From positions 4,060,492 through 4,124,491 of the forward strand of contig NZ_WUTY02000001.1 of NCBI RefSeq assembly GCF_009828925.2: a stretch of DNA of 64,000 nt, given 5' to 3'. Made by a program: the position numbers and the translations under genes. Under the pieces are notes generated by a model that worked only from the letters and a program-made list of their open reading frames with translations, was not told the DNA's origin and searched no databases. Below are positions 30,932 through 62,203 of the stretch, one piece after another (position 1 is the first letter of the stretch; the number at the start of each line of letters is the position of its first letter). Source of the DNA: Methylicorpusculum oleiharenae (GTDB taxonomy: Bacteria; Pseudomonadota; Gammaproteobacteria; Methylococcales; Methylomonadaceae).

Positions 30932-31426
30932 ATGCAAACCCGTTATAGTGAAGAATTTAAACAGCAAGCCCTGAGTAAAGTATTGCAACGCGGTGATAAA
31001 AGTATTCAATCGATTGCCGATGAATTGACTATCAGTGTGTTTACTCTGAAAGGCTGGCTTAAACAGACACGATCCAAATCAACAACAAACACTATGAATC
31101 AACAACGTCCTAAAGACTGGACTCGGGAACAACGGTTTGAAGCCTTGCTAGCCAGCGCGGGCTTGGAAGGCGAAGCACTCAATGCCTTTTGCCGTGAACG
31201 AGGCTTGTTTACCCATCACCTGCAAACGTGGCAACAAGACTTTATTAAACCTCTTGAGGTCACCGAACCCAGCCAAGTCTCAAGGAAAGCCTTGAAACCC
31301 TTGGAGAACGAGATTGCACAACTGAAGAAAGACCTGCAACGCAAGGAGAAAGCCTTGGCAGAAGCCGCCGCTTTGTTGATTCTTCAAAAAAAGTGCCACG
31401 CGTTCTGGGAGGAAAAGGCGCCATGA
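30932..31426 (+). CDS. IS3-family element A, OrfA
   Basis: 164 residues with an N-terminal helix-turn-helix (YSEEFKQQALSKVL, SIQSIADELTISVFTLKGWL) that binds the element's ends, and a C-terminal leucine-zipper-like helix (LKPLENEIAQLKKDLQRKEK). The end overlaps OrfB by 34 bases with the A_AAA_AAG slip site, so a -1 frameshift should yield the OrfAB transposase. Confidence 0.88.
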   Translation: MQTRYSEEFKQQALSKVLQRGDKSIQSIADELTISVFTLKGWLKQTRSKSTTNTMNQQRPKDWTREQRFEALLASAGLEGEALNAFCRERGLFTHHLQTWQQDFIKPLEVTEPSQVSRKALKPLENEIAQLKKDLQRKEKALAEAAALLILQKKCHAFWEEKAP

Positions 31427-32490
31427 TCCCTCTTGCAGAACGCACCCATTTACTCACCTTATTTAACGAAGCGTTTGATCACGGAGCCCGTAAAGCCAAA
31501 GCTGCCGAGGTGATGGGGCTACCGCTACGCACATTACAACGTTGGCAACGTCCCGAAGCCGTGCCGGTTGACGGTCGCACGCGCCGTCAACACGTGCCTT
31601 GTAATCGTTTGAGTGACGAAGAACGCGCTCAGGTATTAGCCCTAGCCAACAGCGATGAGTTCAAAGACAAAACACCGCATCAGATCGTGCCGATGTTGGC
31701 CGAACGCGGCGAGTATTATGCCTCGGAGTCGACGATTTACCGCATTTTTCGCGAGGCGAAACAAGTCAAACACCGTCATGCCTGCCGTCCATCGGTCGAG
31801 CGTAGTAAGCCGAAAGCCCTCATCGCGACGGCACCGAAACAACTGGTGAGTTGGGATATCACCTATTTGACCAGCCTCATCAAAGGCCAGTTTTTCTATC
31901 TGTATCTGTTCATGGATATCTTCAGTCGCAAGATTGTCGGCTGGCAAGTTTATGAACAAGAAAACAGCGAACTGGCGGCCGATCTGATCACGGATCTCTG
32001 CCAACGAGAAGGGATTCCACCGCACCAGTTGGTGTTACATTCCGACAACGGCAGCCCGATGAAAGGGGCAACGCTGCTGGCAACCTTGCAGCAGCTTGGC
32101 GTCACACCCTCACGGAGTCGCCCGGCGGTGAGTAACGACAACCCGTATTCCGAGTCGTTGTTTAAAACGCTGAAATACGACGCCCAGTATCCGACCCAAC
32201 CGTTTGCCTCGGTCACCGCCGCCAGGGACTGGGTAACCGACTTTGTCGCCTGGTACAACCATGAGCATCGGCATAGTGGCATTCAATTTGTAACGCCTGA
32301 GCAACGCCACAGGGGTGAAGATCGGGCGATCCTGAAGCAACGCAAGGCCGTTTACGAGGCCGCTAAAGCCAAAAAACCGGAGCGCTGGAGTCGTAATACC
32401 CGAAACTGGGAATGGCAGGCAGAAGTCTGTTTAAATCCCGATAAACCGAGCGATAGTGCGGTAAAAAATACCGACACTACCGTTCATTAA
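31393..32490 (+). CDS. IS3-family element A, OrfB (DDE integrase core)
   Basis: About 365 codons in the -1 frame. After an HTH_21-like region comes the rve integrase core with catalytic residues D in SWDITYLTS, D in LHSDNGSPMK and E in NPYSESLFKTLK, followed by WYNHEHRHSGIQFVTPEQRH. All three acidic residues are present, so the transposase may be active. It is probably made as an OrfAB fusion by frameshifting rather than from the GTG at 31393. Confidence 0.9.
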   Translation: MPRVLGGKGAMIPLAERTHLLTLFNEAFDHGARKAKAAEVMGLPLRTLQRWQRPEAVPVDGRTRRQHVPCNRLSDEERAQVLALANSDEFKDKTPHQIVPMLAERGEYYASESTIYRIFREAKQVKHRHACRPSVERSKPKALIATAPKQLVSWDITYLTSLIKGQFFYLYLFMDIFSRKIVGWQVYEQENSELAADLITDLCQREGIPPHQLVLHSDNGSPMKGATLLATLQQLGVTPSRSRPAVSNDNPYSESLFKTLKYDAQYPTQPFASVTAARDWVTDFVAWYNHEHRHSGIQFVTPEQRHRGEDRAILKQRKAVYEAAKAKKPERWSRNTRNWEWQAEVCLNPDKPSDSAVKNTDTTVH

Positions 32491-32528
32491 TTTTCAACTC
32501 ATGCGACAACTACGTTGACATTTACCGG

Positions 32529-32823
32529 TACCCAGCTGGGTGAGATTAGCGCTTTATTGCGCAAAGAAGGGATTTATTCCTCCCATCTGTCCACTTGGCG
32601 TAGGCAGCGCGCTGCCGATGAGCGCGCCGCGTTGGCGCCGCAAAAACGCGGGCGCAAGGCCGACCCTGCGCAGGCCGAGGATCGTCGTGTGCACCAACTT
32701 ACCCAGGAAAATGAGCGTCTGCGCCGCAGACTGGCTCAGGCCAATGCCATTATTGAGGTCCAAAAAAAACTTTGCGTCTTGTTCGGTCTGCCGACGGACG
32801 AGACGCCGAGCGAGTCCTGCTGA
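32529..32823 (+). pseudogene. IS3-family element B, OrfA fragment
   Basis: Encodes only the last 97 or so residues of OrfA (from TQLGEISALLRKEGIYSSHL). The helix-turn-helix start is missing, so this copy cannot make its own full transposase. Confidence 0.8.
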
Positions 32824-33836
32824 TGCAAGCCCTTAACCAGTTGGCCCCGGAGGTCGGCCTGGCGCCGGCTTGCGCGGCCCTGAATTCGAACCGCAGTTCG
32901 GTCTATCGCGAGGATGCCCGCCGGCGCCTCTTGGTGCCTGTGCCGGTAACGCGGGTGCCTCGTCCGTCCGTCCCGTTGGCTTTCTCGACCAGTGAGCGCC
33001 AGCAACTGCTGGCGGTGCTTAACAGCGAACGCTTCGCCGATTGCTCGCCGTATTTTGTCTATGCCACCCTGCTGGACGAGGGGCGCTACATCGGCTCGGT
33101 GCGCACCTTGTACCGCGCCCTGGAGGCGGACGGCCTGTCGGCGGAGCGCAGGCGCCAACGGCTGCACCCGGTCTATACCAAGCCGGAACTCCTGGCCACC
33201 GCGCCCAATCAAGTCTGGAGCTGGGATATCACGAAACTCAAAGGCCCGGCCAAATGGACCTGTTTCCACCTGTATGTGATCCTGGATATTTATAGCCGCT
33301 ATGTGGTCGGTTGGATGGTCGCTCCGCGGGAAACCGCCGAACTGGCCGAGCAGCTCATCGCCGAAACAGTGGCCAAGCACAACATCACGCCGCATACGCT
33401 GACGCTGCATGCCGACCGCGGTTCCAGCATGCGCAGCAAGCCGGTGGCCGCCTTGCTGGTTGATCTGGAGGTCGCCAAGACCCATAGCCGGCCTTATGTC
33501 TCAGATGACAATCCCTATTCCGAGGCCCAGTTCAAAACCCTGAAATATCGGCCTGATTTCCCCATCCGCTTCGGATGCCTTGAAGATGCCCGCAGCCATT
33601 GCCAACGCTTCTTCCTGTGGTACAACCAGTCCCATTGCCACTCGGGCATCGGTTACATGACCCCGGCCACCGTCCATTTCGACCAAGCGGCTACGGTATA
33701 CCAAGCACGCGCAAAAACCCTGGAGATTGCCTTCCTCGCCAATCCAAAGCGATTCAAAGGAAAGTGCCCTTTACCACCCAGCTTGCCCAACGCCGTTTGG
33801 ATCAATCCGCCTAATAACACAAAGGGAGAAACTTGA
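32772..33836 (+). CDS. IS3-family element B, OrfB (truncated copy)
   Basis: 354 codons with a complete DDE core: D in SWDITKLKGP, D in LHADRGSSMRS and E in NPYSEAQFKTLK. It differs from the other copy by a handful of substitutions. Without a full OrfA upstream it is unlikely to be expressed normally. Confidence 0.85.
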   Translation: MRLVRSADGRDAERVLLMQALNQLAPEVGLAPACAALNSNRSSVYREDARRRLLVPVPVTRVPRPSVPLAFSTSERQQLLAVLNSERFADCSPYFVYATLLDEGRYIGSVRTLYRALEADGLSAERRRQRLHPVYTKPELLATAPNQVWSWDITKLKGPAKWTCFHLYVILDIYSRYVVGWMVAPRETAELAEQLIAETVAKHNITPHTLTLHADRGSSMRSKPVAALLVDLEVAKTHSRPYVSDDNPYSEAQFKTLKYRPDFPIRFGCLEDARSHCQRFFLWYNQSHCHSGIGYMTPATVHFDQAATVYQARAKTLEIAFLANPKRFKGKCPLPPSLPNAVWINPPNNTKGET

Positions 33837-33900
33837 CCCATAAATACACAACAGTTAGACACTAAATAAAACAACTGGGTGTCTCAAAGTCATTGACACA

Positions 33901-34243
33901 TTCCGGAAGCTGTCCTGCAAGAGCTTTTAATTGACGACCCAACTGATCAATCTCAATAGAGTACAAGCGAACAGTTGTCAACGTACCTAGCCGGTACTGA
34001 ACTACGGTATCATCGTTTAACTGTAGTAGCTCCTTAATGTGTTCTCCATAGGCAGTTCGGGCCTCGACCATACCGGTTTTTGCATCGAATCGAAGATGCG
34101 CAGCCATCTCGTGGTCACAGGGGTTTACAACGTAAGGCCCGACTTTCTCGTCAAGCGGCCAATCATTATTCTTTCGACTATTGCAGTTACCACAGCAATA
34201 ATACAAATTCTCATAGTTGCAAACTAGGTTTGCGAAACCGGAA
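33901..34243 (-). pseudogene. HNH endonuclease fragment between two IS copies
   Basis: On the minus strand the 343 bases encode the back part of an HNH nuclease: FANLVCNYENLYYCCGNCNS, then RKNNDWP and LRFDAKTGMVEA, with the CxxCN-type zinc and NK/NR segments of the fold. The N-terminal part has been removed by the IS at 34244 and the C-terminus by the IS ending at 33900. The style recalls the small HNH proteins of restriction or defence pairs (for example the TIGR02646 type), but no partner remains to prove it. Confidence 0.65.
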
Positions 34244-34300
34244 TGTGTCAATGACATTGAGACACCAAGTTGTTTTATTTAGTGTCTAACTGTTGTTTAT

Positions 34301-35371
34301 TTATGGGTCAAGTTTCTCCTTTGTGTTATTAGGCGGATTGATCCAAACGGCGTTGGGCAAGCGGGGCGGCAAGGGGCACTGTCCTTTGAATCGCTTTGGG
34401 TTGGCAAGGAAAGCCGTCTCCAGGGTTTTGGCGCGGGCTTGGTATACCTTAGCCGCTTGGTCGAAGTGGACGGTGGCCGGGGTCATGTAACCGATGCCCG
34501 AGTGGCAATGGGACTGGTTGTACCACTGGAAGAAGCGTTGGCAATGGCTGCGGGCATCTTCAAGGCATCCGAAGCGGACGGGGAAATCAGGCCGATATTT
34601 CAGGGTTTTGAACTGGGCCTCGGAATAGGGATTGTCATCTGAGACATAAGGCCGGCTATGGGTCTTGGCGACCTCCAGATCGACCAGCAAGGCGGCCACC
34701 GGCTTGCTGCGCATGCTGGAACCGCGGTCGGCATGCAGCGTCAGCGTATGCGGCGTGATGTTGTGCTTGGCCACTGTTTCGGCGATGAGCTGCTCGGCCA
34801 GTTCGGCGGTTTCCCGCGGAGCGACCATCCAACCGACCACATAGCGGCTATAAATATCCAGGATCACATACAGGTGGAAACAGGTCCATTTGGCCGGGCC
34901 TTTGAGTTTCGTGATATCCCAGCTCCAGACTTGATTGGGCGCGGTGGCCAGGAGTTCCGGCTTGGTATAGACCGGGTGCAGCCGTTGGCGCCTGCGCTCC
35001 GCCGACAGGCCGTCCGCCTCCAGGGCGCGGTACAAGGTGCGCACCGAGCCGATGTAGCGCCCCTCGTCCAGCAGGGTGGCATAGACAAAATACGGCGAGC
35101 AATCGGCGAAGCGTTCGCTGTTAAGCACCGCCAGCAGTTGCTGGCGCTCACTGGTCGAGAAAGCCAACGGGACGGACGGACGAGGCACCCGCGTTACCGG
35201 CACAGGCACCAAGAGGCGCCGGCGGGCATCCTCGCGATAGACCGAACTGCGGTTCGAATTCAGGGCCGCGCAAGCCGACGCCAGGCCGACCTCCGGGGCC
35301 AACTGGTTAAGGGCTTGCATCAGCAGGACTCGCTCGGCGTCTCGTCCGTCGGCAGACCGAACAAGACGCAA
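34301..35371 (-). CDS. IS3-family element B, OrfB (full copy)
   Basis: 356 codons with intact DDE residues (SWDITKLKGP, LHADRGSSMRS, NPYSEAQFKTLK). Probably expressed as an OrfAB fusion: a run of eight A just before the LCVLFGLP codons of OrfA is a -1 slip site, and OrfB lies in the -1 frame. Confidence 0.9.
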   Translation of the reverse strand: MRLVRSADGRDAERVLLMQALNQLAPEVGLASACAALNSNRSSVYREDARRRLLVPVPVTRVPRPSVPLAFSTSERQQLLAVLNSERFADCSPYFVYATLLDEGRYIGSVRTLYRALEADGLSAERRRQRLHPVYTKPELLATAPNQVWSWDITKLKGPAKWTCFHLYVILDIYSRYVVGWMVAPRETAELAEQLIAETVAKHNITPHTLTLHADRGSSMRSKPVAALLVDLEVAKTHSRPYVSDDNPYSEAQFKTLKYRPDFPVRFGCLEDARSHCQRFFQWYNQSHCHSGIGYMTPATVHFDQAAKVYQARAKTLETAFLANPKRFKGQCPLPPRLPNAVWINPPNNTKEKLDP

Positions 35372-35808
35372 AGTTTTTTTTGGACCTCAATAATGGCATT
35401 GGCCTGAGCCAGTCTGCGGCGCAGACGCTCATTTTCCTGGGTAAGTTGGTGCACACGACGATCCTCGGCCTGCGCAGGGTCGGCCTTGCGCCCGCGTTTT
35501 TGCGGCGCCAACGCGGCGCGCTCATCGGCAGCACGCTGCCTACGCCAAGTGGACAGATGGGAGGAATAAATCCCTTCTTTGCGCAATAAAGCGCCAATCT
35601 CACCCAGCTGGGTACAGCGATCAGCGGCCTCCAGGATGCGGCGCTTGTCGCTGCTGGTAAATTGTCGGCGCTGGGCGGTGGCAACCACCTCTGGGTCGGG
35701 CCGCGCGCCGGAGGTCGCGTTTTCAGCCGCCCTACGGGCGTCTTCCAACGCGACCTCCGGCGCAGTTACTTGTGGTGATTCCATGGTCTCTGCTTTCGAT
35801 TTGCTCAT
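35320..35808 (-). CDS. IS3-family element B, OrfA (full copy)
   Basis: 162 residues with the helix-turn-helix of IS3 OrfA proteins (QFTSSDKRRILEAADRC, HLSTWRRQRAADE) and a leucine-zipper helix (QLTQENERLRRRLAQANAII). It overlaps OrfB by 52 bases around the poly-A slippery sequence. Confidence 0.88.
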   Translation of the reverse strand: MSKSKAETMESPQVTAPEVALEDARRAAENATSGARPDPEVVATAQRRQFTSSDKRRILEAADRCTQLGEIGALLRKEGIYSSHLSTWRRQRAADERAALAPQKRGRKADPAQAEDRRVHQLTQENERLRRRLAQANAIIEVQKKLCVLFGLPTDETPSESC

Positions 35809-38180: not shown

Positions 38181-39326
38181 GTGAAACTTCCAGACCAAGG
38201 CCAGACCGACTATTTTGATGAGCGGACCACTGGACTCGGATTACGCATTTCATCTGCCGGACGGAAAAGCTGGTTTGTCATGTATCGCCATGCCGGTCGT
38301 TTGCGCCGCTATACGCTTGGCACCTTCCCTGCCCTCGGCTTAGCGGACGCCCGAGAAAAAGCCAAAGCATTGTTGCACGAAGCGGCGCTGGGCAATGATC
38401 CTGCAAGTGAAAAGCAAGTCAATCGCGGCGCTGTCACATTCGGCCAATTAGCCGAGCAATATATTGAGTTACATGCCAAGGCTAGAAAAAAATCCTGGAA
38501 GGAAGATCAACGTATCCTTGACCATGACGCTTTACCCCTGTGGAAAAATGTAAAAGCCCATGAGATCAAACGACGCGACATAATTGCGCTGTTAGATAAA
38601 ATCGTTCTGCGCGCACCCATCCAAGCTAATCGTACCCTCGCTTTAGTGCGAAAATTATTTAACTGGGCAATCAGCCGAGATTTGCTTGAGATCAACCCCT
38701 GTGCTCAGGTTCAAATGCCGGCAAAAGAAAACAAGAAAGATCGCGTGCTTTCAGAAGACGAGATTGTCCAATTTTGGGAAACCCTAAGCTCTGCATCCAT
38801 GAGTGAACTCTCTCGGTTATGCTTGCAGTTTCAGTTAGTGACGGCGCAACGTAAAGGTGAAATTGTCATCGCCGAATGGTGCGAGTTTGATCTTAATAAT
38901 GGCTGGTGGACAATTCCGAGTGAAAAAGTCAAAAACAAATTATCCCATCGGGTTCCGTTATCCCCGTCGGCTTTAAGTCTGCTTGAAAAAATTAAATTGA
39001 TTTCTGGAGAATCACGCTGGCTCTTCCCTTCCGCTAAAGGGGATAAACCTATACGGGATACCAGTATTGATCATGCGCTACATAAAAATGAAGCCTTATT
39101 TCAAATCCCGCCTTTTACGCCTCATGATCTGCGCCGGACTGCTGCGAGCCACATGACCAGCCTGGGCGTATCGAGACTGACGGTGTCAAAGATACTCAAT
39201 CACAGTGAGAGCGGAATCACCGCTGTTTATGATCGGCACAGTTATGACCGAGAAAAACGCGATGCCTTAATGTTATGGAGTGACCGCTTGCTCGATATGG
39301 CAGCGGCAAAGCAGAAATGCAGGTGA
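38181..39326 (+). CDS. Tyrosine recombinase / phage-type integrase
   Basis: 381 residues with an N-terminal arm-binding DUF4102-like domain (DYFDERTTGLGLRIS, YTLGTFPALGLADARE), a core-binding domain, and the catalytic domain. The catalytic residues are R in VTAQRKGEIV, HxxR in TPHDLRRTAAS, H in LNHSESG and nucleophile Y in TAVYDRHSYDREK. It would integrate an element at the tRNA-Thr end beside it. The start is uncertain: GTG at 38181 is used, but family-like residues (FTLRWIDTV) continue in frame upstream without an ATG. Confidence 0.9.
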   Translation: MKLPDQGQTDYFDERTTGLGLRISSAGRKSWFVMYRHAGRLRRYTLGTFPALGLADAREKAKALLHEAALGNDPASEKQVNRGAVTFGQLAEQYIELHAKARKKSWKEDQRILDHDALPLWKNVKAHEIKRRDIIALLDKIVLRAPIQANRTLALVRKLFNWAISRDLLEINPCAQVQMPAKENKKDRVLSEDEIVQFWETLSSASMSELSRLCLQFQLVTAQRKGEIVIAEWCEFDLNNGWWTIPSEKVKNKLSHRVPLSPSALSLLEKIKLISGESRWLFPSAKGDKPIRDTSIDHALHKNEALFQIPPFTPHDLRRTAASHMTSLGVSRLTVSKILNHSESGITAVYDRHSYDREKRDALMLWSDRLLDMAAAKQKCR

Positions 39327-43775: not shown

Positions 43776-44330
43776 TCAAGCCGCCTGCGCCAAATTCGGC
43801 AACAGTTGCGGCTTGATTTGCTCCAGCCAGATGCTAAGCCGTTCATCGGTCAAATGCGGCTGGCCGCGCTGATCCAAAACCAAGCCGACGAACTGGTTGT
43901 CGATGATGGAGGCCGAATATTCGAATTGGTAGCCTTCGGTGCTCCAGCGGCCGACCATTTTGGCACCATTGCCGTAAAACACCTGATACAGTTTGATCAA
44001 GGAACTGGCGAAGCGCGATGCGTAACGCTCCTGATGGCCCAAGCCGAAGAGGGCAACCCGCTTGCCGCTCAGATCGGCATCGTCAAGGTAGGGTAAGAAC
44101 TCGGCCCAATTGGCTTCCAGGCAACCCGCCGCCAGACCTGGCAAGTCGCCGACGCCGTAACTGGGCGTACCCAAGATCAAAGCGTCGTACCGCAGCAGTT
44201 CGGCGGGGCTGGTGCGATTGATGTTTTTGGGCTTGTCAGCTAACTCTTCGCCCAACAGGCCATGAATTTTTTTGGCCACCAGGCGGGTGCTGCCGGTATC
44301 CGTGCCGAAAAAAATGCCGATTTTGCTCAT
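43776..44330 (-). CDS. nifF: NifF-like long-chain flavodoxin
   Basis: 184 residues with the FMN phosphate loop FGTDTGSTRLVAKKI, the first FMN-edge segment LGTPSYGVGDLPG and the long-chain insertion after LFGLGHQERYASRF. Long-chain flavodoxins of this kind feed electrons to nitrogenase reductase. The assignment to NifF rather than a general flavodoxin rests on the neighbours (NifX-like genes and a NifA-type promoter nearby) and on its own -24/-12-like promoter. AGGTGAC precedes the ATG. Confidence 0.8.
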   Translation of the reverse strand: MSKIGIFFGTDTGSTRLVAKKIHGLLGEELADKPKNINRTSPAELLRYDALILGTPSYGVGDLPGLAAGCLEANWAEFLPYLDDADLSGKRVALFGLGHQERYASRFASSLIKLYQVFYGNGAKMVGRWSTEGYQFEYSASIIDNQFVGLVLDQRGQPHLTDERLSIWLEQIKPQLLPNLAQAA

Positions 44331-44768: not shown

Positions 44769-45155
44769 TTAACTGTTATCCTCTTTTCGGCATTGTTGTT
44801 CCAGATGCGGTAAATCTTCGGTTAAATTGCCAGCTCGATAGGCTTCCAAAGCAGTGAGGGGTAAAGTCTCAACAGTGGTCAATAAAGTCGTGTTTCTCTG
44901 CAATAAATTTCGTTTGACCCCGTCTCCGGCCGATCCAGCAATAACGACATCAACATAATGCAAAGGATGACGATTACCATCGCCACGCACATGCCATTCA
45001 TGAAGACTACCGGCATCTGTCAGGTCAAGTGTCCACGCAAGGCTTGGTTCCGACGCGTCGGAAACCACGTAAACTAGCCATCGTAAAGCTCTCCCCGCAT
45101 GAGGCGCAAGGTTTCCATCGTCTCCGACAGCCAATGCAATCAGTTTTTCGGTCAT
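44769..45155 (-). CDS. NifX/NafY-family (dinitrogenase FeMo-cofactor) protein
   Basis: 128 residues of the Fe-Mo cofactor-binding fold (PF02579 type): a start IALAVGDDGNLAPHAGRALRW, a central HYVDVVIAGSAGDGVKRNL, and the TTVETLPLTALEAYRAGNL end. Family members bind or carry NifB-cofactor or FeMo-cofactor during nitrogenase assembly. GAGGAA precedes the ATG. It is divergent from a second member of the same family at 45464, and the NifA-type site between them could serve both. Confidence 0.8.
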   Translation of the reverse strand: MTEKLIALAVGDDGNLAPHAGRALRWLVYVVSDASEPSLAWTLDLTDAGSLHEWHVRGDGNRHPLHYVDVVIAGSAGDGVKRNLLQRNTTLLTTVETLPLTALEAYRAGNLTEDLPHLEQQCRKEDNS

Positions 45156-45332: not shown

Positions 45333-45348
45333 TGTTACAAAGCCAACA
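45333..45348. promoter_or_regulatory. NifA-type upstream activator site
   Basis: TGT, ten bases, ACA: the exact consensus of NifA binding sites, 78 bases above the -24 box of the promoter at 45411. It lies in the 308-base gap between the two divergent NifX-like genes. Confidence 0.75.
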
Positions 45349-45410
45349 AATTCATCGAGTTCGTATCTGATCGTAACCGCTAAATCCTTGACTATAAGAT
45401 CTTTTCAGAT

Positions 45411-45425
45411 TGGCACTCGTCTTGC
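45411..45425 (+). promoter_or_regulatory. Sigma-54 (-24/-12) promoter
   Basis: TGGCAC (45411-45416), five bases, TTGC (45422-45425): a near-perfect RpoN promoter (consensus TGGCACG-N4-TTGC). Transcription would start near 45437, 27 bases before the ATG at 45464. With the NifA site upstream this indicates expression under nitrogen-fixing conditions. Confidence 0.88.
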
Positions 45426-45463
45426 TGCGCTCAAATAAAGCCATTTCCGACAGTAAAAAACGC

Positions 45464-45826
45464 ATGCCTAGATTCCCTGTAAAAGTGGCGGTCGCTAGCA
45501 AAGAAGGACTAGCCATTAGCGAGCATTTCGGCCACACCAAACAATTTCGCATCTACGAAGTCAGCCCGGAAAGCTGCAAATTGCTTGAAATACGGGAAGT
45601 CTCCAACTATTGCCTGGGCCAACAGGGAGACCAGTCCGCAATGGTGGGCATCCTGGAGGCTATCAAAGATTGTCATGCCGTATTCATCGCTAAAATTGGA
45701 GAAGGACCTATTGAAAAATGTCAGGCCATCGGAGTAAAAGCGGTTTCAGATTTCGCCTACCAAGCCATCGAAGCTTCATTAATCGATTATGTCAGTCACT
45801 TAGACACCTCTGAGGCAACACCATGA
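45464..45826 (+). CDS. NifX-like FeMo-cofactor biosynthesis protein
   Basis: 120 residues of the PF02579 family: KVAVASKEGLAISEHFGHTK opens the fold, then VFIAKIGEGPIEKCQAIGVK and AYQAIEASLIDYV. The GHxxxF segment (FGHTKQF) matches NifX/NifB-tail proteins. The start is the ATG at 45464, placed just after the sigma-54 promoter; an upstream in-frame start at 45410 would lie inside that promoter. First gene of an operon with the next two. Confidence 0.88.
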   Translation: MPRFPVKVAVASKEGLAISEHFGHTKQFRIYEVSPESCKLLEIREVSNYCLGQQGDQSAMVGILEAIKDCHAVFIAKIGEGPIEKCQAIGVKAVSDFAYQAIEASLIDYVSHLDTSEATP

Positions 45827-46197
45827 ACTTCGTACAAGTTCAGACTTGGGTAAAAGCCCACCCCTTGCATCCCTTGCACATCGATTGCGCCACTGCCGTC
45901 ATGCTAAAGATACTTGACGGCAAATGCAAAATGCGCGAAGGCGAAAAACGCGTCATGACTATGCTTTATGATGCCATCAAATCGTTTCCGGGTCAGGTTT
46001 TGGAAAGTTCTTTGCATTCCTTGATCGATTCGGCGCGTCATCATGACGACGAAGCACTGAAGCTGTTGATTTATGAAAAAAGAGTATTGGCGGAAACCGC
46101 GATTTCCCGCCCGGTAATGAAAGGCTTTAAAACCATGATCAGGCAGCAAGGCTTATTGGATGGCGCCGACGATGACGATGACGAAGCAGAGCAATGA
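45823..46197 (+). CDS. Unknown protein of the NifA-controlled operon
   Basis: 124 residues, helical, no membrane segment, with an Asp/Glu-rich tail (DGADDDDDEAEQ). HIDCATAVMLKILDGKCKMRE has two cysteines. The ATG overlaps the stop of the NifX-like gene by four bases, so it is co-translated. I do not know the family; by context it is a nitrogen-fixation accessory protein. Confidence 0.75.
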   Translation: MNFVQVQTWVKAHPLHPLHIDCATAVMLKILDGKCKMREGEKRVMTMLYDAIKSFPGQVLESSLHSLIDSARHHDDEALKLLIYEKRVLAETAISRPVMKGFKTMIRQQGLLDGADDDDDEAEQ

Positions 46198-46229
46198 ATC
46201 CGACGATCGCGTGGGCATGAGGTAACATC

Positions 46230-47045
46230 ATGACCAGCTATGCCATCGGAAGCGTGCACGGTGACTACCCCGCCTTGATTCAGCTCCTGCAAAAAATTGG
46301 TTACGAAGCGGATACCGATCGCTTGGGGTTTGCCGGCAATCTCGTCAATAGCGGCCCAGATTCGCTGGCCGTGCTCCGTTTTGTCAAGAATCTTGGCAAA
46401 AATGCCGTTACCGTATTAGGTAGCCAAGAACTGCATTTGCTCAGCGTCGCCGCGGGCATCGTGCCCAGTCGAACCGACGATACGTTTGACGACATACTGG
46501 CCGCTGAGGATAAGGACGAACTTTTGAAGTGGCTGCGCCAACGCACCTTGATCCACCACGATTCCAAACTGAATTTTACGATGGTGCATGCCGGGATACC
46601 GACCGAATGGACGTTCAGCCAAGCGTTGACCTTTGCTTACGAAGTAGAATCGGTGCTTGTCAGTGGGCAGTACATTGCATTTTTAGAAAACCGGCGCCAA
46701 GACCAAACTCGCTGGCACGCCAAACTGACCGGCTGGAAACGCACGAATTTCATAACCAATGCATACACAGCAATGGCTTACTGCACGGACCAAGGCAAAC
46801 TGGATTTTAGGGAGCAGGGCCCGATCTACCAACAAACTTCACCGTTAGTGCCTTGGTATCGGTTACCGAATCGCATCACCGCTCATCTGAATATCGTTTT
46901 CAGTGACGAAGTCAGTTTTGAAGATTCGGTCTTTCCAGGCATTTTCCCGTTGGCGTGTCAAACGGTACTGTCAGCCTTAAAATTAACGTCCGATCCGGAA
47001 GTTTTCAGCATCGAACGTAATAACGGCTTGCCAGAAGCGATTTGA
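46230..47045 (+). CDS. ApaH homologue with destroyed phosphatase motifs
   Basis: 271 residues that follow ApaH (symmetrical Ap4A hydrolase) from end to end, including LAVLRFVKNLG, AVTVLGS, LHLLSVAAGI, FTMVHAGIPTEW, RTNFITNAYTAM and VPWYRLP. The metal-binding motifs are altered: GDVHG is GSVHG (residues 7-11), GDLVxRG is GNLVNSG (36-42), GNHD is GSQE (64-67), and the late GHW is replaced by SDE. Only the histidines of GSVHG and VHAG remain. It should therefore not hydrolyse Ap4A, but might bind a nucleotide or a partner. It is third in the NifA/sigma-54 operon, 32 bases after the previous stop, with GAGGT before the ATG. Confidence 0.88.
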   Translation: MTSYAIGSVHGDYPALIQLLQKIGYEADTDRLGFAGNLVNSGPDSLAVLRFVKNLGKNAVTVLGSQELHLLSVAAGIVPSRTDDTFDDILAAEDKDELLKWLRQRTLIHHDSKLNFTMVHAGIPTEWTFSQALTFAYEVESVLVSGQYIAFLENRRQDQTRWHAKLTGWKRTNFITNAYTAMAYCTDQGKLDFREQGPIYQQTSPLVPWYRLPNRITAHLNIVFSDEVSFEDSVFPGIFPLACQTVLSALKLTSDPEVFSIERNNGLPEAI

Positions 47046-47137: not shown

Positions 47138-47737
47138 TCAGGCCTCCCAATTCAATGACTTTGCTACAACCGCTGGTTCAATCACCTTACGAAACGTCAA
47201 ATTAATCCGTGGGTAAAGAATCCCATGCTCTATCGGCACGCTATGCTGCCAATCGCGTTGAAAACCCGGGTACATGATCAGCAGACTACCGGCCGATAAC
47301 AACACGCTCTCGGTGTTCAGCGTTCGATTGTGCCGGCATGAAAAGGCTCGAGTGACGCCCAGACTCAAGGACGCGATACACGGCGACTCGCCGAGTTCCT
47401 GCTCGTTATCGGCATGCCAGCCGACGTGATCTTCGCCGTTCCGGTAACAGTTGACCAACACCGCATTGAAAGCCTGCTGTAATTTGGCTTCCACGTCGGC
47501 GCGCAGGCTCGATAGAACGGAGTTCCAAGGCCGAGTGACGAGCAAATTGTTACTGTAATTGTAGCGGATGCCGGCATCGGCATGCCAGGTCTGCAATCTC
47601 GGCAATACGAATCGGCGCCCCCCGTATTCGTATCGATTGTCCGGCCAGGCATGCTGTTTCAGAAAATAGTGCAATAATCGTGTGCATTCCCCTGCATCAT
47701 AGAAATCCTCGATCAGTTCCAATTCCGAACACTGCAT
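47138..47737 (-). CDS. alkB: AlkB-family DNA/RNA demethylase
   Basis: 199 residues of the Fe(II)/2-oxoglutarate dioxygenase AlkB. The iron ligands are H108 and D110 in GWHADNE and H165 in WQHSVP; R177 and R183 of PRINLTFR bind 2-oxoglutarate. The substrate lid QTWHADAGIRYNYS is also typical. It removes methyl groups from damaged bases oxidatively. The ATG at 47737 shares a base with the stop of the hemerythrin gene (TGATG), so it is last in that operon; a longer reading from 47809 is rejected. Confidence 0.9.
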   Translation of the reverse strand: MQCSELELIEDFYDAGECTRLLHYFLKQHAWPDNRYEYGGRRFVLPRLQTWHADAGIRYNYSNNLLVTRPWNSVLSSLRADVEAKLQQAFNAVLVNCYRNGEDHVGWHADNEQELGESPCIASLSLGVTRAFSCRHNRTLNTESVLLSAGSLLIMYPGFQRDWQHSVPIEHGILYPRINLTFRKVIEPAVVAKSLNWEA

Positions 47738-48132
47738 CAGGCTTTCGACCCTGTTTTGATATGGGCCGCGAGCGCACTGTCCATCGTCGTAACATGCAAT
47801 TGAAACCATTGCGGCAAACGGTCTTTAACAAACGCGCGGCCAAAAGCCACCATGCCTTTGTCGATCCGGCTTTGAAACTGCTTGAATTCTCCCACTACCC
47901 GCTGATGCTCACCCATGTGTTCTGCCCGGGCCGGAAAACCGTGTTCCTTCATCAATTGATTTTCCCTGTCAAAATGCTGCTCGGTATGCTCGAACAATGC
48001 CTTAAATAACAAAGGAAAATCCGCGTTACTCGCAACGTCCAGTTGGTTAAGCAACCCGACGAACGCCTGGTGGTCGGTGTCGATTGCAGGATGATTTACC
48101 GTCTTGACGCTAGCCAAATCAATTAATGCCAT
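47737..48132 (-). CDS. Bacteriohemerythrin
   Basis: 131 residues with the di-iron ligand pattern of hemerythrins: HPAIDTDH, then HFDRENQLM, the HMGEH pair and LPQWFQLHVTTMD. These hold an O2-binding diiron site in a four-helix bundle. Such proteins carry or buffer oxygen, and in methanotrophs they have been proposed to supply methane monooxygenase. Here it lies between a glutathione S-transferase and AlkB in one operon, next to nif-type genes. Confidence 0.92.
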   Translation of the reverse strand: MALIDLASVKTVNHPAIDTDHQAFVGLLNQLDVASNADFPLLFKALFEHTEQHFDRENQLMKEHGFPARAEHMGEHQRVVGEFKQFQSRIDKGMVAFGRAFVKDRLPQWFQLHVTTMDSALAAHIKTGSKA

Positions 48133-48171
48133 GTTAGTTTCACCTAAACAATACCCATCGTTTCCTGGATT

Positions 48172-48798
48172 CTATTCCAGCCGATAGCCTTCTTCTATCA
48201 TCACCCGCCTGACGATTGGCCGGGAACACATCAAGCGGTAATGAGCCAGGCAGTTTTCAGGCAACGTGATGCCTGACCTGTCTGCCCAAAATTCGATATA
48301 AAACAAGGCCGCGTCAGCGATACCAAAGCGTCCCATGGCGTAACCTTTGGCCGACAATTGACCGTTCAGAATCTCGAACCCACGGTGGATGATGTCCAAA
48401 CCCTGTGCTTTGACCGCTTCATGATCGGCCGGATTCAGCGTAAATTTGTCGGTCGTAAAGATTCGGGCAAAGCCCTGTCCGTGCACCGTCCCGGTAGCGT
48501 ATGCGATCAACTCGATGGCTTTCGCTTCGTCGTCGATATCTTCCGGCAACAAACCGGCCTTTGGATAACGTCTTGCCAGCCACCAAGCAATCGCAGAGAA
48601 CTCCGTCAAGGCACTTCCGTCGTCTTTTTGCAGAACCGGAATGGTGGCCTTCGGATTAATCGCCAAATAGTCTGTCTTGTGTTGATCCCCCGCCAGCAGA
48701 TTGACAATGTGGGCCTCGAATACCAGCTCGAGCTCTTCGAGCAAAATATGGATACCTGTCGAGCAAGAGCCGGGCGTCATGTAAAGTTTCATCGGCAT
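48172..48798 (-). CDS. Glutathione S-transferase family protein
   Basis: 208 residues with a thioredoxin-like N-terminal domain (MKLYMTPGSCSTGIHILLEE, with the cis-Pro segment KATIPVLQ and SALTEFSAIAWWL binding glutathione) and an all-helical C-terminal domain (GFARIF, GRFGIADAALFYIE). A GST gene is found in several nitrogen-fixation clusters. Its end is 39 bases before the hemerythrin start and its own start overlaps the unknown gene upstream by 10 bases. Confidence 0.88.
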   Translation of the reverse strand: MPMKLYMTPGSCSTGIHILLEELELVFEAHIVNLLAGDQHKTDYLAINPKATIPVLQKDDGSALTEFSAIAWWLARRYPKAGLLPEDIDDEAKAIELIAYATGTVHGQGFARIFTTDKFTLNPADHEAVKAQGLDIIHRGFEILNGQLSAKGYAMGRFGIADAALFYIEFWADRSGITLPENCLAHYRLMCSRPIVRRVMIEEGYRLE

Positions 48799-49250
48799 TC
48801 TAAAAAGAATTCGTTAGCACTAAGTGCGAAATCGCGCCATTGTTCGGCGACTTCGCGTTTGACTGCATCGATATAGTCGTCGCTAGGTTTATGCTCGTCC
48901 GGGAAGTTGGATAGTGCACAGGAAGTACGGTGCATGTCGACAACGAACAACAAAAATTCGTCTACAAAACCATCGAAAACGGGAATCAGGCGCCGGGTCA
49001 ATGATGACATGCCACGATCGACATCGACTGCTCCGCCGCTAAATGGCAAGCTTTGCAAGTAGGCCAAGGCATCCCGATACGTTTCGGCAAGCACGTCCAC
49101 CACATTGTTCTGAAAACACCCGTTCCACTGCTGCCTCGACAAATTCCCAGCCAAACGTTGTTGATAAGTTGTTTTCATACCGGATTTACGCTGATTCAAA
49201 TAATCCCGGAACTGCACCATGCTGACGTCGTTACGCTGGTCTAGCGACAT
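48789..49250 (-). CDS. Hypothetical protein heading the GST-hemerythrin-AlkB operon
   Basis: 153 residues starting at the ATG at 49250 with GAGG nine bases upstream. Helical, with CFQNNVVDVLAETYRDALAY, a long VFDGFVDEFLLFVVDMHRT segment and two C-terminal cysteine-containing parts (HRTSCALS, FFLECR). No family recognised. It overlaps the GST gene by 10 bases, so the four genes 49250 to 47138 form one transcript. No sigma-54 promoter is evident upstream. Confidence 0.7.
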   Translation of the reverse strand: MSLDQRNDVSMVQFRDYLNQRKSGMKTTYQQRLAGNLSRQQWNGCFQNNVVDVLAETYRDALAYLQSLPFSGGAVDVDRGMSSLTRRLIPVFDGFVDEFLLFVVDMHRTSCALSNFPDEHKPSDDYIDAVKREVAEQWRDFALSANEFFLECR

Positions 49251-49559
49251 GCTGGGAACCTCGCTGTAAACAAAAACAAAATACATTCAATATCGGGGCC
49301 AATGCGGGATAAATCGAATACATACCCAAACCGTCGACTCGAAAAGAGTTGAAGCAGTAAGGAATTTGGTCGATACAGACCCCCTTTGTGATTGGAGAGA
49401 ATCTTGTTCTCAGAGGAGCGATACTACGAAATGGAAGTAAAAATAGCGCTGAATTGTCTCGATCACGACAATTTCCGATCGACAAAACAGCCCTTGGTTT
49501 TTTAAAGCGATAGCTCGTTCTGAGTTTGTCGATGAACGAAGGATAATCCGATGAACAAG

Positions 49560-58432: not shown

Positions 58433-61400
58433 CTATTTCTTCTTATCTTTCCCGCCCTCGTTATGGCCGTGACCATGCGGAAACGAGTCGTCTTGATCAT
58501 GTCCACCATCGTGCTCATCCGGGCAAGGTTTGCAGCCTTCATCTTCATCCTCGGTCTTTATGTGCGGGAAGTGTTCACCCTTCGAGTGGGGCATCCGCGT
58601 CTTGGGTAGCGGCGCTGGGCGCACTATCGGTCTTGACGGCGGCGTGGTGGTAAAGAAGACTTCAGGGTCGATTACCGCCAGCCGCTCCACCAATTCATCC
58701 AGCAGCTCGGTTGAACGGGACGAGATGGCGGCAGTTCCGGCGGCTTTCGCTATGCTCAATTCCGCCTGCCTTTGATTCGATGCGCACCATTGCTTGATGC
58801 ATTTCCGGATTGCATTGATATCGATGCCAGCCTCGCGGAGCGCTTTTTCGATGCGTTCATCAAGTACCTTCGGCCCCGTCAGGCATTGCAACAAGCGGCA
58901 TAGCCGTTCGTCGCGTTCGCGAATCACGTCGATCAAATCGCCAAGACCGCCACTACCAGCACCCTCGCCGGCAAATATGCTGACCGTCAGCAGTTTCTCC
59001 CGCGTGAACGGGTGTCCGGCCGAAGTCGCGCCGTTGGCTCGAACCCGGAACTGATACACACCGGCGCCCGAGGTTGAGTAAACTGCCTTGTGACGGCCGG
59101 AATCCGATTCGCTGTAGAGCAGAGAGTCCGTCGAGCCGTCCGGCCGCGTTACTTCGGCCCAAACGTTGGCGTGTCCGCCAAAAGGTATGCCGTACTCGGA
59201 CAGAGTTGTCTCCAGCTTGATCTCGCTGCCGGGCGTGAAGTCGGCTTGTATGAGTAAGGCGTCGAACTTCAGGTTCGAGTAGGTGTGGACGATACAATTG
59301 TAGGGCAGCTTACCGCGCCGACGCAGTGTTGCCAACGAAGTCCAGGCTTGACGATGTTCGGCCAGCCAGCCTTTTACTTCTTCCAGCTTCCGCAGCCGGA
59401 ATCGTGCCTGCCAGCGTCCGGCATGGGATCCTGCAACTGCCGCCGGTAACACCGGCAACATCAAACGGTAGAAGGCTACATCGTTCTTCACCAAAAACTG
59501 CACGTTCGGCTCGATGGCTGCAGAGGCGGGGTTGATGATCTGACCGCCTGGCGTCCGCAACACGAATTCCAGCAAGTCGGCAAGCGGACACAGAGCAATG
59601 ACGTCAATGCTAACCTCGGTCGCCGCAACATCGAACTCGACGATCTGGGAATCGCCCCAGCCCAGTTCGCCCTGTGGATCGATGATGATATTTGCATTGG
59701 TCGCACCCGCCAAAACTTGCACGAAGTGCTTGGTGAGGAAGAAGCGCTGCTCTTCCGTGCTCAAATTACCCGTTACTGTGAAAAAACCTCCGGTGTTGCT
59801 GGCAATGGCGCTCAGTACAGCATCGCTCACTTGGCCGGGCAGGCCGAAGCCAATTGAAAAAGTACGGTTACTGATGGTGCCTGCTGGTAGCTCACTAACA
59901 TAGGGATGGACATTTTCGTTACCATCGGTCAACACCAGCATCGAGCGGTTGGTGTGGGTCGAGCCGGCCAGTATTGGCGCAGCAGTCTGGATACCGAGAC
60001 CGATTCCGGTCAATCCTCGCGGGTCCAGAGCCGTTCCGGTAAGAAGGGTGCCCAGCCCCGCGCTCTGCGTGGTGAGCGGTAGCGGCGTTTCGACCAGATC
60101 ATCAAAACTGACTACACCGATCTCATCATCAGGAAGCATAAGGGTATGAAACACACCCACGGCGTTCTTGAGCAGCGAGCTGCGGGTACTGGTTCCGCCG
60201 GCTGCCGCAGCCATACTCCCCGAACGATCCAACACCAGCATTACCGCGTTATTCGCGCGCGCTTCAACACCTGCAGTGAGATTGACCGACCACGACCCCA
60301 GCACGACTTCACCGCCTTCGGTTGCTGCATAGTAGCCTTCGTCGTCGATGATGTAGGCCTGGATGGAAAGGCTGGAGGATTGTGAAACCGCGCCAACCGC
60401 GTGGAACTGCACCCACACGTAACCATTAATAAAATCAGAGGCTTCGTCCGGCTGAGCGATAAATTCAGCGCCGAGTGGCGTTAAACCGAAATTGCCGGTC
60501 GGCGCAGCAGTGATAAGAAAGCGCGCCGTCCGGCAGGTCTGGATACGGAAACGTACGGCGCGAAACGTTGTCAGTCCTTCAGGTATATCGCCAAAGGCAA
60601 GCGTGGGCCCGGAATCGAGACTGATCTCGGGAAGGTCGGTATCGTACCAGACGCCGTCGCCGTGAATCGTATGACCTTCGATCATCTGTTGCGGCGTGGC
60701 TGTGCCAACCCACGGGGCCGGATCGCCAGGATCATGAAAGATCATCGTATCGGTAAGGCCGTGCCCTGCCGTCGCCGAGCCGACATAAGGATCAAGCGCG
60801 GGATTCTTCTTCTGCCAGAGAGTCCACATGCGGTCGATCGCCGCGTGGTGCAGCCAGAACACCATGTCGTTTGGCGATGATGCGGTTAGCATCGCGCCGT
60901 TGACCCAGCGATGAACCAGGTTGTGAAGATCTTCGGAGCGCGAACGCAGGGTAGCATAACTGCTGGAGCTGATGGCAGCCCGGAAGGTAGTGCTCGTGCC
61001 CGTGACGACCGTGTCGTTTTCTGGGAGATTCGGCGCATCATTTTGGGTTCCGGGAACATTGAACGTTCCAAAGGAGCGCGTGAGGAAGTTTGGATCGCTA
61101 ACCAAATCCTTCACGACGATTGACCAATTGTCCGGATCAAACTCAAATGGGTAAGAACTGTCCGGATTTAGAGGCACGGCAGGATCGCGTATGACACGCA
61201 TATCGACTGTTGGATCCGGAGGATTACCCGGACCACCGTTTCGTCCGAGAAAATCGTTCTTGAATGGGAATCCAGAGTGCGCTGTTGTCTTGTGACGCGT
61301 CCAATCCCAGTAAGGAATGCGGACGCCGGGGACGATGCTCTGTAAATCCTTTTCAAACCGGTACAGCAATTCCCTGTGCCACGGGAGAAACGCCCTATCG

Positions 61401-61579
61401 CCATGTCCCCAGTTGGGACTGGAGTTCATGGCATTGAGATGAACCTCCACGTAATCGTCATAGCGGGTCTGAGTACCCGGATGCATGAGGCTTGGAAGCC
61501 CCTTGAGGCCCTTGCAGGCGTGGACGAAGTCATTCTTTTCGGCTTGAGTCAGGTTGCGTACATTCTTACGGCATTTCAT
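58433..61579 (-). CDS. Tyrosinase-von Willebrand factor A fusion protein
   Basis: 1,048 residues from an ATG at 61579 with GGAGGTGG upstream. Residues 1-310 are a type 3 copper tyrosinase: CuA histidines H47 (VEVHLNA), H59 (WGHGDRAF) and H68 (LPWHREL), CuB H219 and H223 (LHNLVHRW) and H244/H245 (FWLHHAAIDRMW). A beta-rich part leads to a VWA domain (about 445-640) with a complete MIDAS start DRSGSMA (451-457). Beta domains and a helical segment (LIDVIRERDERLCRLLQCLT) follow, and a His/Asp/Glu/Lys-rich tail closes it. No signal peptide. It should oxidise phenols and bind a partner or matrix via the metal site. Stand-alone gene. Confidence 0.88.
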   Translation of the reverse strand: MKCRKNVRNLTQAEKNDFVHACKGLKGLPSLMHPGTQTRYDDYVEVHLNAMNSSPNWGHGDRAFLPWHRELLYRFEKDLQSIVPGVRIPYWDWTRHKTTAHSGFPFKNDFLGRNGGPGNPPDPTVDMRVIRDPAVPLNPDSSYPFEFDPDNWSIVVKDLVSDPNFLTRSFGTFNVPGTQNDAPNLPENDTVVTGTSTTFRAAISSSSYATLRSRSEDLHNLVHRWVNGAMLTASSPNDMVFWLHHAAIDRMWTLWQKKNPALDPYVGSATAGHGLTDTMIFHDPGDPAPWVGTATPQQMIEGHTIHGDGVWYDTDLPEISLDSGPTLAFGDIPEGLTTFRAVRFRIQTCRTARFLITAAPTGNFGLTPLGAEFIAQPDEASDFINGYVWVQFHAVGAVSQSSSLSIQAYIIDDEGYYAATEGGEVVLGSWSVNLTAGVEARANNAVMLVLDRSGSMAAAAGGTSTRSSLLKNAVGVFHTLMLPDDEIGVVSFDDLVETPLPLTTQSAGLGTLLTGTALDPRGLTGIGLGIQTAAPILAGSTHTNRSMLVLTDGNENVHPYVSELPAGTISNRTFSIGFGLPGQVSDAVLSAIASNTGGFFTVTGNLSTEEQRFFLTKHFVQVLAGATNANIIIDPQGELGWGDSQIVEFDVAATEVSIDVIALCPLADLLEFVLRTPGGQIINPASAAIEPNVQFLVKNDVAFYRLMLPVLPAAVAGSHAGRWQARFRLRKLEEVKGWLAEHRQAWTSLATLRRRGKLPYNCIVHTYSNLKFDALLIQADFTPGSEIKLETTLSEYGIPFGGHANVWAEVTRPDGSTDSLLYSESDSGRHKAVYSTSGAGVYQFRVRANGATSAGHPFTREKLLTVSIFAGEGAGSGGLGDLIDVIRERDERLCRLLQCLTGPKVLDERIEKALREAGIDINAIRKCIKQWCASNQRQAELSIAKAAGTAAISSRSTELLDELVERLAVIDPEVFFTTTPPSRPIVRPAPLPKTRMPHSKGEHFPHIKTEDEDEGCKPCPDEHDGGHDQDDSFPHGHGHNEGGKDKKK

Positions 61580-62203
61580 ATTCCACCTCCATAAGTGGTT
61601 AATTGGACACAGTGGCCTAACAAGCAAAAGTCCAGTTATGATTAACGCCTACTCTTTATAAGTCTCAGTTAATCAAGAATGATTTACGCCGCAAGTTTTT
61701 CGTTAATGAGTGGCATTCAGATACAATATTGGCCTGCCGATTTTGATTACTCTCTAGATTCATCATGGCTGAGCGCGTAGTCAAGAAATTGTATTGCCTC
61801 AAATTTGGAGGTGTGTTTAACCTTGACAATATGCGTCCTTGGCTAAAATGAATAATTCCCTAACGGTTGAATTGCGTACAAAACTTCGTTTGTGGTGAAA
61901 TTATTATCAACGCGTATTGAAAAACTTTTGTTAGACCTATTTTCTTCGTTGTAATGAATTATGTTTGCGATTGGCCGTTGGCGATTGTTCAGATTCAACG
62001 TGAAGATGGAAAACTTCCATGCATAATCAAATTAAGATTTGCTAATCTCCCTACCATCCGCATCTCATAAATTACATTATTTCAAATACTCCGCAATTCG
62101 TATAAGTACTTACTTGCACGGAGAATCGCTATTTTTGCGAAATAAAGAACTCCGGCCATTCATTAAACGAAATTTTGTGTGGATCAAACGTCTCTTGTTG
62201 GCT
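61580..62203. other. Gene-free stretch
   Basis: Only short frames without start signals; AT-rich. Nothing recognised. Confidence 0.5.

Follow-up and report, generated by a model that had tools for sequence, protein, structure and literature searches.

In a 64,000-nt stretch of the Methylicorpusculum oleiharenae genome (the window, to which all coordinates refer unless a locus is named) we have analyzed an operon in which a NifA-type site and a sigma-54-type promoter precede genes for a NifX-like protein, a 124-residue protein and a relative of ApaH, here called psApaH (46230-47045, plus strand, 271 residues). psApaH is a conserved ApaH paralogue without the catalytic ligands that forms a clade of its own, is under selection and is associated with nifH and with NifA-type sites. 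We suggest, with a probability of roughly 0.55, that psApaH is a pseudo-phosphatase induced by NifA and sigma-54 and that one family of methane oxidizers uses it as a protein-binding accessory factor when fixing nitrogen.

psApaH is homologous over residues 1-241 to ApaH, the symmetrical bis(5'-nucleosyl)-tetraphosphatase of the PPP family (PDB 2dfj and 9ojd), matching PDB ApaH at an E value of 1e-49; it scores 233 bits on NCBIfam model NF001204 (cut-off 176) and 210 bits on TIGR00668, below the cut-off of 223. In PPP-family phosphatases the ligands of the two metals are located at the motifs GD, GDxxxRG, GNHD and GH. A previous sequence-only reading of the window had noted that the corresponding motifs are GSVHG, GNLVNSG, GSQE and SDE in psApaH, and all four, the last read as FSDE, are present in the protein. 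In a comparison of 50 psApaH orthologues, one of which does not cover the Asp residues of motifs 1 and 2, with 37 canonical ApaH proteins, (i) the metal-binding Asp8 of motif 1 is kept in 0 of 49 psApaH proteins, with Ser in 43 and Asn in 6, (ii) the metal-binding Asp37 of motif 2 (GDLVxRG) is kept in 0 of 49, with Asn in 49/49, and the Arg of GDxxxRG is gone in the same number, (iii) in GNHD His66 is kept in 0/50 and Asn65 in 16/50, and (iv) His226 of GH(W) is kept in 0/50, with Asp in all 50. The canonical proteins have the expected residue at Asp8, Asp37, His66 and His226 in 37/37. The His of the HAG motif is kept in 44 of the 50 psApaH proteins, including that of the window, and is Asn in 6. 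The loss of catalytic residues is therefore fixed throughout the 50 orthologues examined, among which relatives with intact motifs were looked for and not found. One detail of the sequence-only reading falls away: the H of GDVHG, counted there among the motifs, occupies an uninformative position that is Q in 36 of the 37 canonical proteins.

The departure from ApaH is not restricted to the metal ligands. We considered a position canonically invariant if at least 35 of the 37 canonical proteins share the residue, which gives 93 positions (the partial orthologue ps_L112, at a contig edge, was left out), and most core positions among these are kept in psApaH. In canonical numbering, the cap-region residues Tyr154, Gly155 and Pro158, invariant in canonical ApaH, are kept in 0/49, Arg180 in 5/49 and Arg182 in 2/49. 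The C-terminal segment D-x-G-C-x-W-G is invariant in the canonical proteins compared and its D, G, C, W and G are kept in 0/49, so that psApaH, described earlier as a full-length ApaH relative, is not quite that. Conversely, residues such as S130, T134, S141, E153, Q159, K165, W169, Y210, D226, F230, D232 and P240 are newly fixed in 50/50 psApaH proteins, and they are located behind the HAG motif and in the C-terminal portion. In total, the core is retained, and residues ~127-171 and 208-241 of the window protein have been remodelled and are conserved only inside the psApaH clade.

The same genome encodes a second ApaH elsewhere, behind an open reading frame that we take to be ApaG-like, with intact GDIQG, GDLVNRG, GNHD, HAG and FGHW motifs and 44% identity to psApaH. 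The presence of a canonical apaH, which the sequence-only reading had left to be checked, makes the window gene an extra paralogue. A test of 30 genomes, among them 22 psApaH carriers, found canonical ApaH in every one. Searched at E <= 1e-62, the 237 family genomes contain psApaH in 50 cases, one being the window's genome and the other 49 carrying orthologues with 56-68% identity, and a search of 311 genomes of the order at E <= 1e-75 recovered the same 50, all in the window's own family. Among 369 genomes of the class, the E <= 1e-62 threshold yielded 16 further matches with 43-48% identity; seven of these (L113-L119) were read, and all show canonical motifs and fall among the canonical ApaH proteins, which rejects these seven as psApaH outside the family. 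Plasmids gave 29 records, all below 60% identity, and the ten listed are ~40% identical and called apaH where annotated, which does not support a plasmid psApaH.

In a maximum-likelihood tree of 49 psApaH and 37 canonical proteins, the two groups separate with support 100/100, and the psApaH clade spans 10 genera. The ratio of nonsynonymous to synonymous substitution rates (dN/dS, NG86) in 64 close psApaH pairs, which are not independent, is 0.14 at the median, and no pair exceeds 0.30; for ten pairs of canonical ApaH it is 0.06 (ps_L112 was left out of the tree and of the pairs). A stop lies inside the matched stretch in 3 of the 50 copies (G060, G176 and G197); the first two of these were read, and their frames continue uninterrupted into a variable tail. 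The window's psApaH is the sister of the G230 copy from the Methylomonas-like genus g11 (support 100/97), and nifH without psApaH or the 124-residue gene is found in two genomes of the genus to which the window belongs; the operon of the three genes was probably acquired from this Methylomonas-like genus.

At the level of whole genomes, psApaH is associated with nitrogen fixation. nifH is present in 118 of the 237 family genomes and in 44 of the 50 with psApaH, the remaining six being only 76-80% complete. Among near-complete genomes, nifH is found in 41/41 with psApaH versus 55/132 without (Fisher p 4e-13, not corrected for relatedness). The association holds within genus g11: in its near-complete genomes psApaH is present in 23/28 with nifH versus 0/3 without (p 0.012), and in all 37 of its genomes the counts are 25/31 and 1/6, that one being 78% complete. 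NifA is encoded in 14 of 15 genomes tested, the window's own included, with no match in G041 at E 1e-150.

The upstream signals of the window operon were borne out as the sequence-only reading had described them. A NifA-type upstream activator site (UAS; TGT-N10-ACA, TGTTACAAAGCCAACA) was recognized by inspection at 45333-45348 and is followed at 45411-45426, on the same plus strand, by a -24/-12 promoter (TGGCACTCGTCTTGCT, TGGCAC-N5-TTGCT) that fits the consensus at 11/11 positions. Taking a UAS together with a -24/-12 promoter ahead of a gene or operon as the mark of the NifA/sigma-54 regulon, both elements are found in the window. The perfect pattern TGGCAC-N5-TTGCW has this one match in the whole window; tolerating one mismatch gives 4 matches versus 3.2 expected, which makes the box by itself non-significant, and the case rests on comparison with relatives. 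Among 26 different genomes that have a nifX-like gene and enough upstream sequence, a strict UAS lies 67-81 bases ahead of the best box in 18, the window included, and the spacing of 78 bases in the window recurs upstream of the nifX-like genes of relatives.

At most readable loci psApaH has a box of its own. Of the 48 loci whose upstream sequence extends to 200 bases or more, 32 have a TGGCATNNNNNTTGWT box, TGGCAT-N5-TTGAT in 31 and TGGCAT-N5-TTGTT in 1, located 52-268 bases before the ATG and accompanied by an upstream NifA-like site. The loose form of this site, (T/G/A)GT-N10-ACA, is present 121-220 bases above the box in 32/32 (3.1 in base shuffles), and the strict TGT-N10-ACA form in 14/32 versus 1.1 in base shuffles. 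In the neighbourhoods TGGCA-N6-TTGAT has 35 matches in 1.1 million strand-bases, 31 of these immediately ahead of psApaH. In 24 genomes, 21 of them with psApaH, the tight pattern TGGCATYAWAATTGAT occurs once each in 17, directly before psApaH in 16; the reversed control of this pattern has 0 matches in the 24 genomes, and the pattern itself has 0 in the three without psApaH. The remaining match, on contig 193 of G041 (L170), is not ahead of psApaH. The A/T-rich spacer of the TGGCAT-N5-TTGAT box is conserved as well (32 loci among L066-L109).

Thus, of the 50 copies, 41 stand in nif-type settings (32 with their own box, 6 in a nifX-like operon and 3 in an operon of a 165-residue gene), 7 do not and 2 are truncated at contig ends. 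The nifX-like operons with psApaH as third gene are those of the window and of G093, G230, G222, G164 and G170; four of these six operons have box and UAS (weak in G164), G230 has a box without strict UAS, and G093 has neither. At L070, L075 and L092, psApaH follows an operon of the 165-residue gene, a glutathione S-transferase (GST) gene and an AlkB-like gene (with hemerythrin in two) whose promoter has a UAS. Four of the boxless copies (L105, L106, L110 and L111) directly follow a gene of one cluster, identified by Pfam in L110 as alanine dehydrogenase. In L110 (4868-6762) its stop overlaps the psApaH start as TAATG and a GG-N10-GC site lies 58 bases upstream of the dehydrogenase gene without UAS; in L105 there is a short gap instead of the overlap. 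Alanine dehydrogenase, upstream of psApaH in these four genomes, is an ammonia-assimilation gene. In G210 (L103: 5323-6780), psApaH is directly behind ccmB, and at L107 and L108 it stands alone, with TGT-N10-ACA present and no box.

Combining these data, we suggest that psApaH is an old, selected and inactive ApaH paralogue that has been turned into an accessory protein dedicated to nitrogen fixation. In this model, (i) NifA and the sigma-54 RNA polymerase would turn psApaH on during nitrogen fixation, as the conserved sites suggest, (ii) psApaH, having lost the ligands, would be unable to form the two-metal center and for this reason would neither hydrolyze diadenosine tetraphosphate (Ap4A) nor decap RNA with nucleoside-tetraphosphate (Np4) caps, and (iii) the remodelled surface most likely binds a protein partner in the machinery for nitrogenase assembly or protection. 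The absence of phosphatase activity is a strong inference. It is in line with a published mutant of an ApaH-like phosphatase that had no decapping activity once the Asp of motif 1 was replaced by Asn (PMC8220851). The NifX-like and 124-residue proteins encoded just upstream would be the first partner candidates, with perhaps one chance in five for these two. The sequence-only reading, a protein repurposed for nitrogen fixation, is partly supported, the gene being tied to NifA/sigma-54-type signals and to genomes with nifH; of the roles proposed there, assistance in cofactor assembly draws only on the NifX-like neighbour, and psApaH shares an operon with such a gene in no more than the six genomes listed above.

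Several observations weigh against the accessory-factor model. The AlphaFold model of psApaH, built from a three-sequence alignment, has a mean predicted local distance difference test score (pLDDT) of 43.6 and was not used further. The UAS-like sites have the strict TGT form at only 14/32 loci, both the loose form and the range of distances having been picked post hoc. At the nifH promoters of 20 family genomes, -12 is GC in 20/20 and a strict UAS lies 110-115 bases upstream in 19/20, the one without being that of the window's own genome; the psApaH boxes, unlike these, have GA (31) or GT (1) at -12 and the UAS-like site 121-220 bases away, and for these reasons the use of sigma-54 at the psApaH box is uncertain. 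GA at -12 could be an ordinary variant in part of this regulon, given that the 165-residue gene has a TGGCC-N6-TTGAA box with a UAS 95-117 bases upstream in 6 of 18 different genomes (L066, L069, L070, L075, L090 and L092). A recognizable box is absent at 7 of the 48 readable loci. psApaH is missing from 55 of 96 near-complete genomes with nifH and is therefore not essential for fixation. Finally, the co-occurrence counts ignore shared ancestry except in the test within genus g11.

psApaH may be compared with several known systems. It shares with canonical ApaH the core glycines and the HAG motif, and differs from it in the lost motif Asp, Asp and His, the GH His, the cap residues and the C-terminal motif, in its separate clade and in its nif-type promoter. 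Pseudophosphatase regulators likewise have a conserved fold without catalytic residues and are under purifying selection; however, we know of no inactive-enzyme regulator in the ApaH family or in a nif regulon. Pseudoenzymes as such are already known, and psApaH would be one in a family and in a regulon where no other is known to us. NifX/NafY-type proteins are NifA-controlled accessory proteins of nitrogenase assembly, as proposed here for psApaH, with a fold unrelated to it. The eukaryotic ApaH-like phosphatases (ALPHs) are likewise ApaH-derived PPP proteins with a changed GDxxxRG motif, but they keep the catalytic motifs, which psApaH has lost, and those tested decap mRNA in vitro (PMC8220851). 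The literature searched, which leaves out most subscription journals, contained no description of psApaH, of an ApaH linked to nif genes, of an ApaH pseudoenzyme or of Ap4A in nitrogen fixation.

Alternatively, psApaH could be a nucleotide-binding pseudoenzyme that binds Ap4A or Np4-capped RNA without cutting it and in that way senses an alarmone or protects nif transcripts. The ApaH core and the HAG His, Trp161, Trp208 and Arg214 (canonical numbering) are mostly or always kept, and published work describes decapping of NpnN-RNA by the canonical ApaH of Escherichia coli (PMC7044304) and action of Ap4A through a non-hydrolyzing binding protein in Bacillus (PMC13039410). Nevertheless, putative nucleotide contacts have been lost, namely Tyr154, Gly155, Pro158 and the GDxxxRG Arg in 49/49, Arg182 in 47/49 and Arg180 in 44/49. 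With invariant residues of the cap region gone as well as the metal ligands, Ap4A sensing, as put forward in the sequence-only reading, is the weaker reading and lacks support, and we regard nucleotide binding as unlikely. In a more specific version, psApaH, made only under NifA control, would read Np4 caps or Ap4A without cutting them and either shield nif transcripts or signal the level of the alarmone to nitrogenase assembly; this is improbable, but if true it would link dinucleoside polyphosphates directly to nitrogen fixation, and of such a link we know no other case.

The newly fixed residues could also have given the ApaH fold a different chemistry. Several polar residues have come under strong new constraint (Asp226 and Asp232 in 50/50, Asp111 and His110 in 49, His163 in 47), which would suit a new enzyme, but we recognize no known metal or catalytic motif among them and they could equally form an interface, which leaves this possibility with poor odds. 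At similarly long odds we place the proposal that the nif link is one of neighbourhood only and that the gene does something else and travels with nif genes: many g11 genomes lack a recognized nif-linked gene within ~3.5 kb of psApaH (some neighbours being unannotated) and seven loci lack a recognizable box, but many solitary copies have their own box and UAS (e.g. L067, L079, L081 and L085-L089), and the nifH association holds inside genus g11. Less probable still is a decoy or dominant-negative partner that would lower the activity of canonical ApaH and raise Ap4A or Np4 caps during fixation. The 30 genomes with canonical ApaH mentioned above include 22 in which psApaH is also at hand, and bacterial ApaH entries in PDB average two chains per entry, which would allow a dimer without showing one; against this, the two ApaH proteins of the window's genome are ~44% identical. 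A decaying duplicate without function, suggested by the loss of most catalytic residues and the internal stops in 3/50 copies, has virtually no chance, and a recent pseudogene or degenerate copy is ruled out, given 50 orthologues in one old clade across 10 genera, dN/dS of 0.14, newly fixed residues and the open frames in G060 and G176.

The gene order of the operon, as outlined in the sequence-only reading, can be read directly. The NifX/NafY-type protein (45464-45826, plus strand, 120 residues) has a Nitro_FeMo-Co domain (PF02579, E 1.6e-20; 73.6 bits, cut-off 26.3); it scores 53.9 bits on the NifX model TIGR02663 (cut-off 112) and higher, 79 bits but under the cut-off, on the C-terminal part of the NifB model. 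Its gene overlaps by four bases, ATGA, with that of the acidic-tailed 124-residue protein (45823-46197, plus strand), which is followed by psApaH. The 124-residue protein has no Pfam or NCBIfam match; its confident structure model (pLDDT 87.8) is all-helical and has no PDB match under E 0.001. The gene is present in 39 of 201 family genomes, 37 of these with nifH and 29 with psApaH, and the protein is itself, on the evidence of this distribution, an unannotated nif-linked family. Two cysteines, C22 and C35, are invariant across three aligned members.

On the minus strand, the window has a flavodoxin gene (43776-44330; near psApaH in 13 of 50 loci), presumably encoding a NifF candidate, with a GG-N10-GC box 72 bases upstream and no strict UAS seen upstream, and a divergent, weakly NifX-like gene (44769-45155) with a PF02579 score below the cut-off. 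A convergent group on the same strand (47138-49286) comprises the 165-residue gene (48792-49286), which has no Pfam or NCBIfam match, a GST gene that we take to be NifO-like, hemerythrin and an AlkB-like gene, each of which lies close to psApaH in 13-16 of 50 loci when the window is included. Further away are genes at 30932-35808 that we take from their translations to be IS3-type transposases, with two near-identical copies in opposite orientation (32772-33836 and 34301-35371), and a presumed phage-type integrase gene (38181-39326) ~4.5 kb from the flavodoxin gene. A 1064-residue protein encoded at 58433-61627 seems, judged by eye from its motifs, to carry a tyrosinase domain and, after it, a von Willebrand A-like domain.

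In psApaH nature provides a clear example of a pseudoenzyme made from an Ap4A hydrolase. Given that the NCBI ApaH model NF001204 accepts it, automatic annotation may predict an activity that is very probably absent. For the methane oxidizers, psApaH adds a conserved NifA-linked protein family, and with it the adjacent 124-residue family, to the set of genes for nitrogen fixation.

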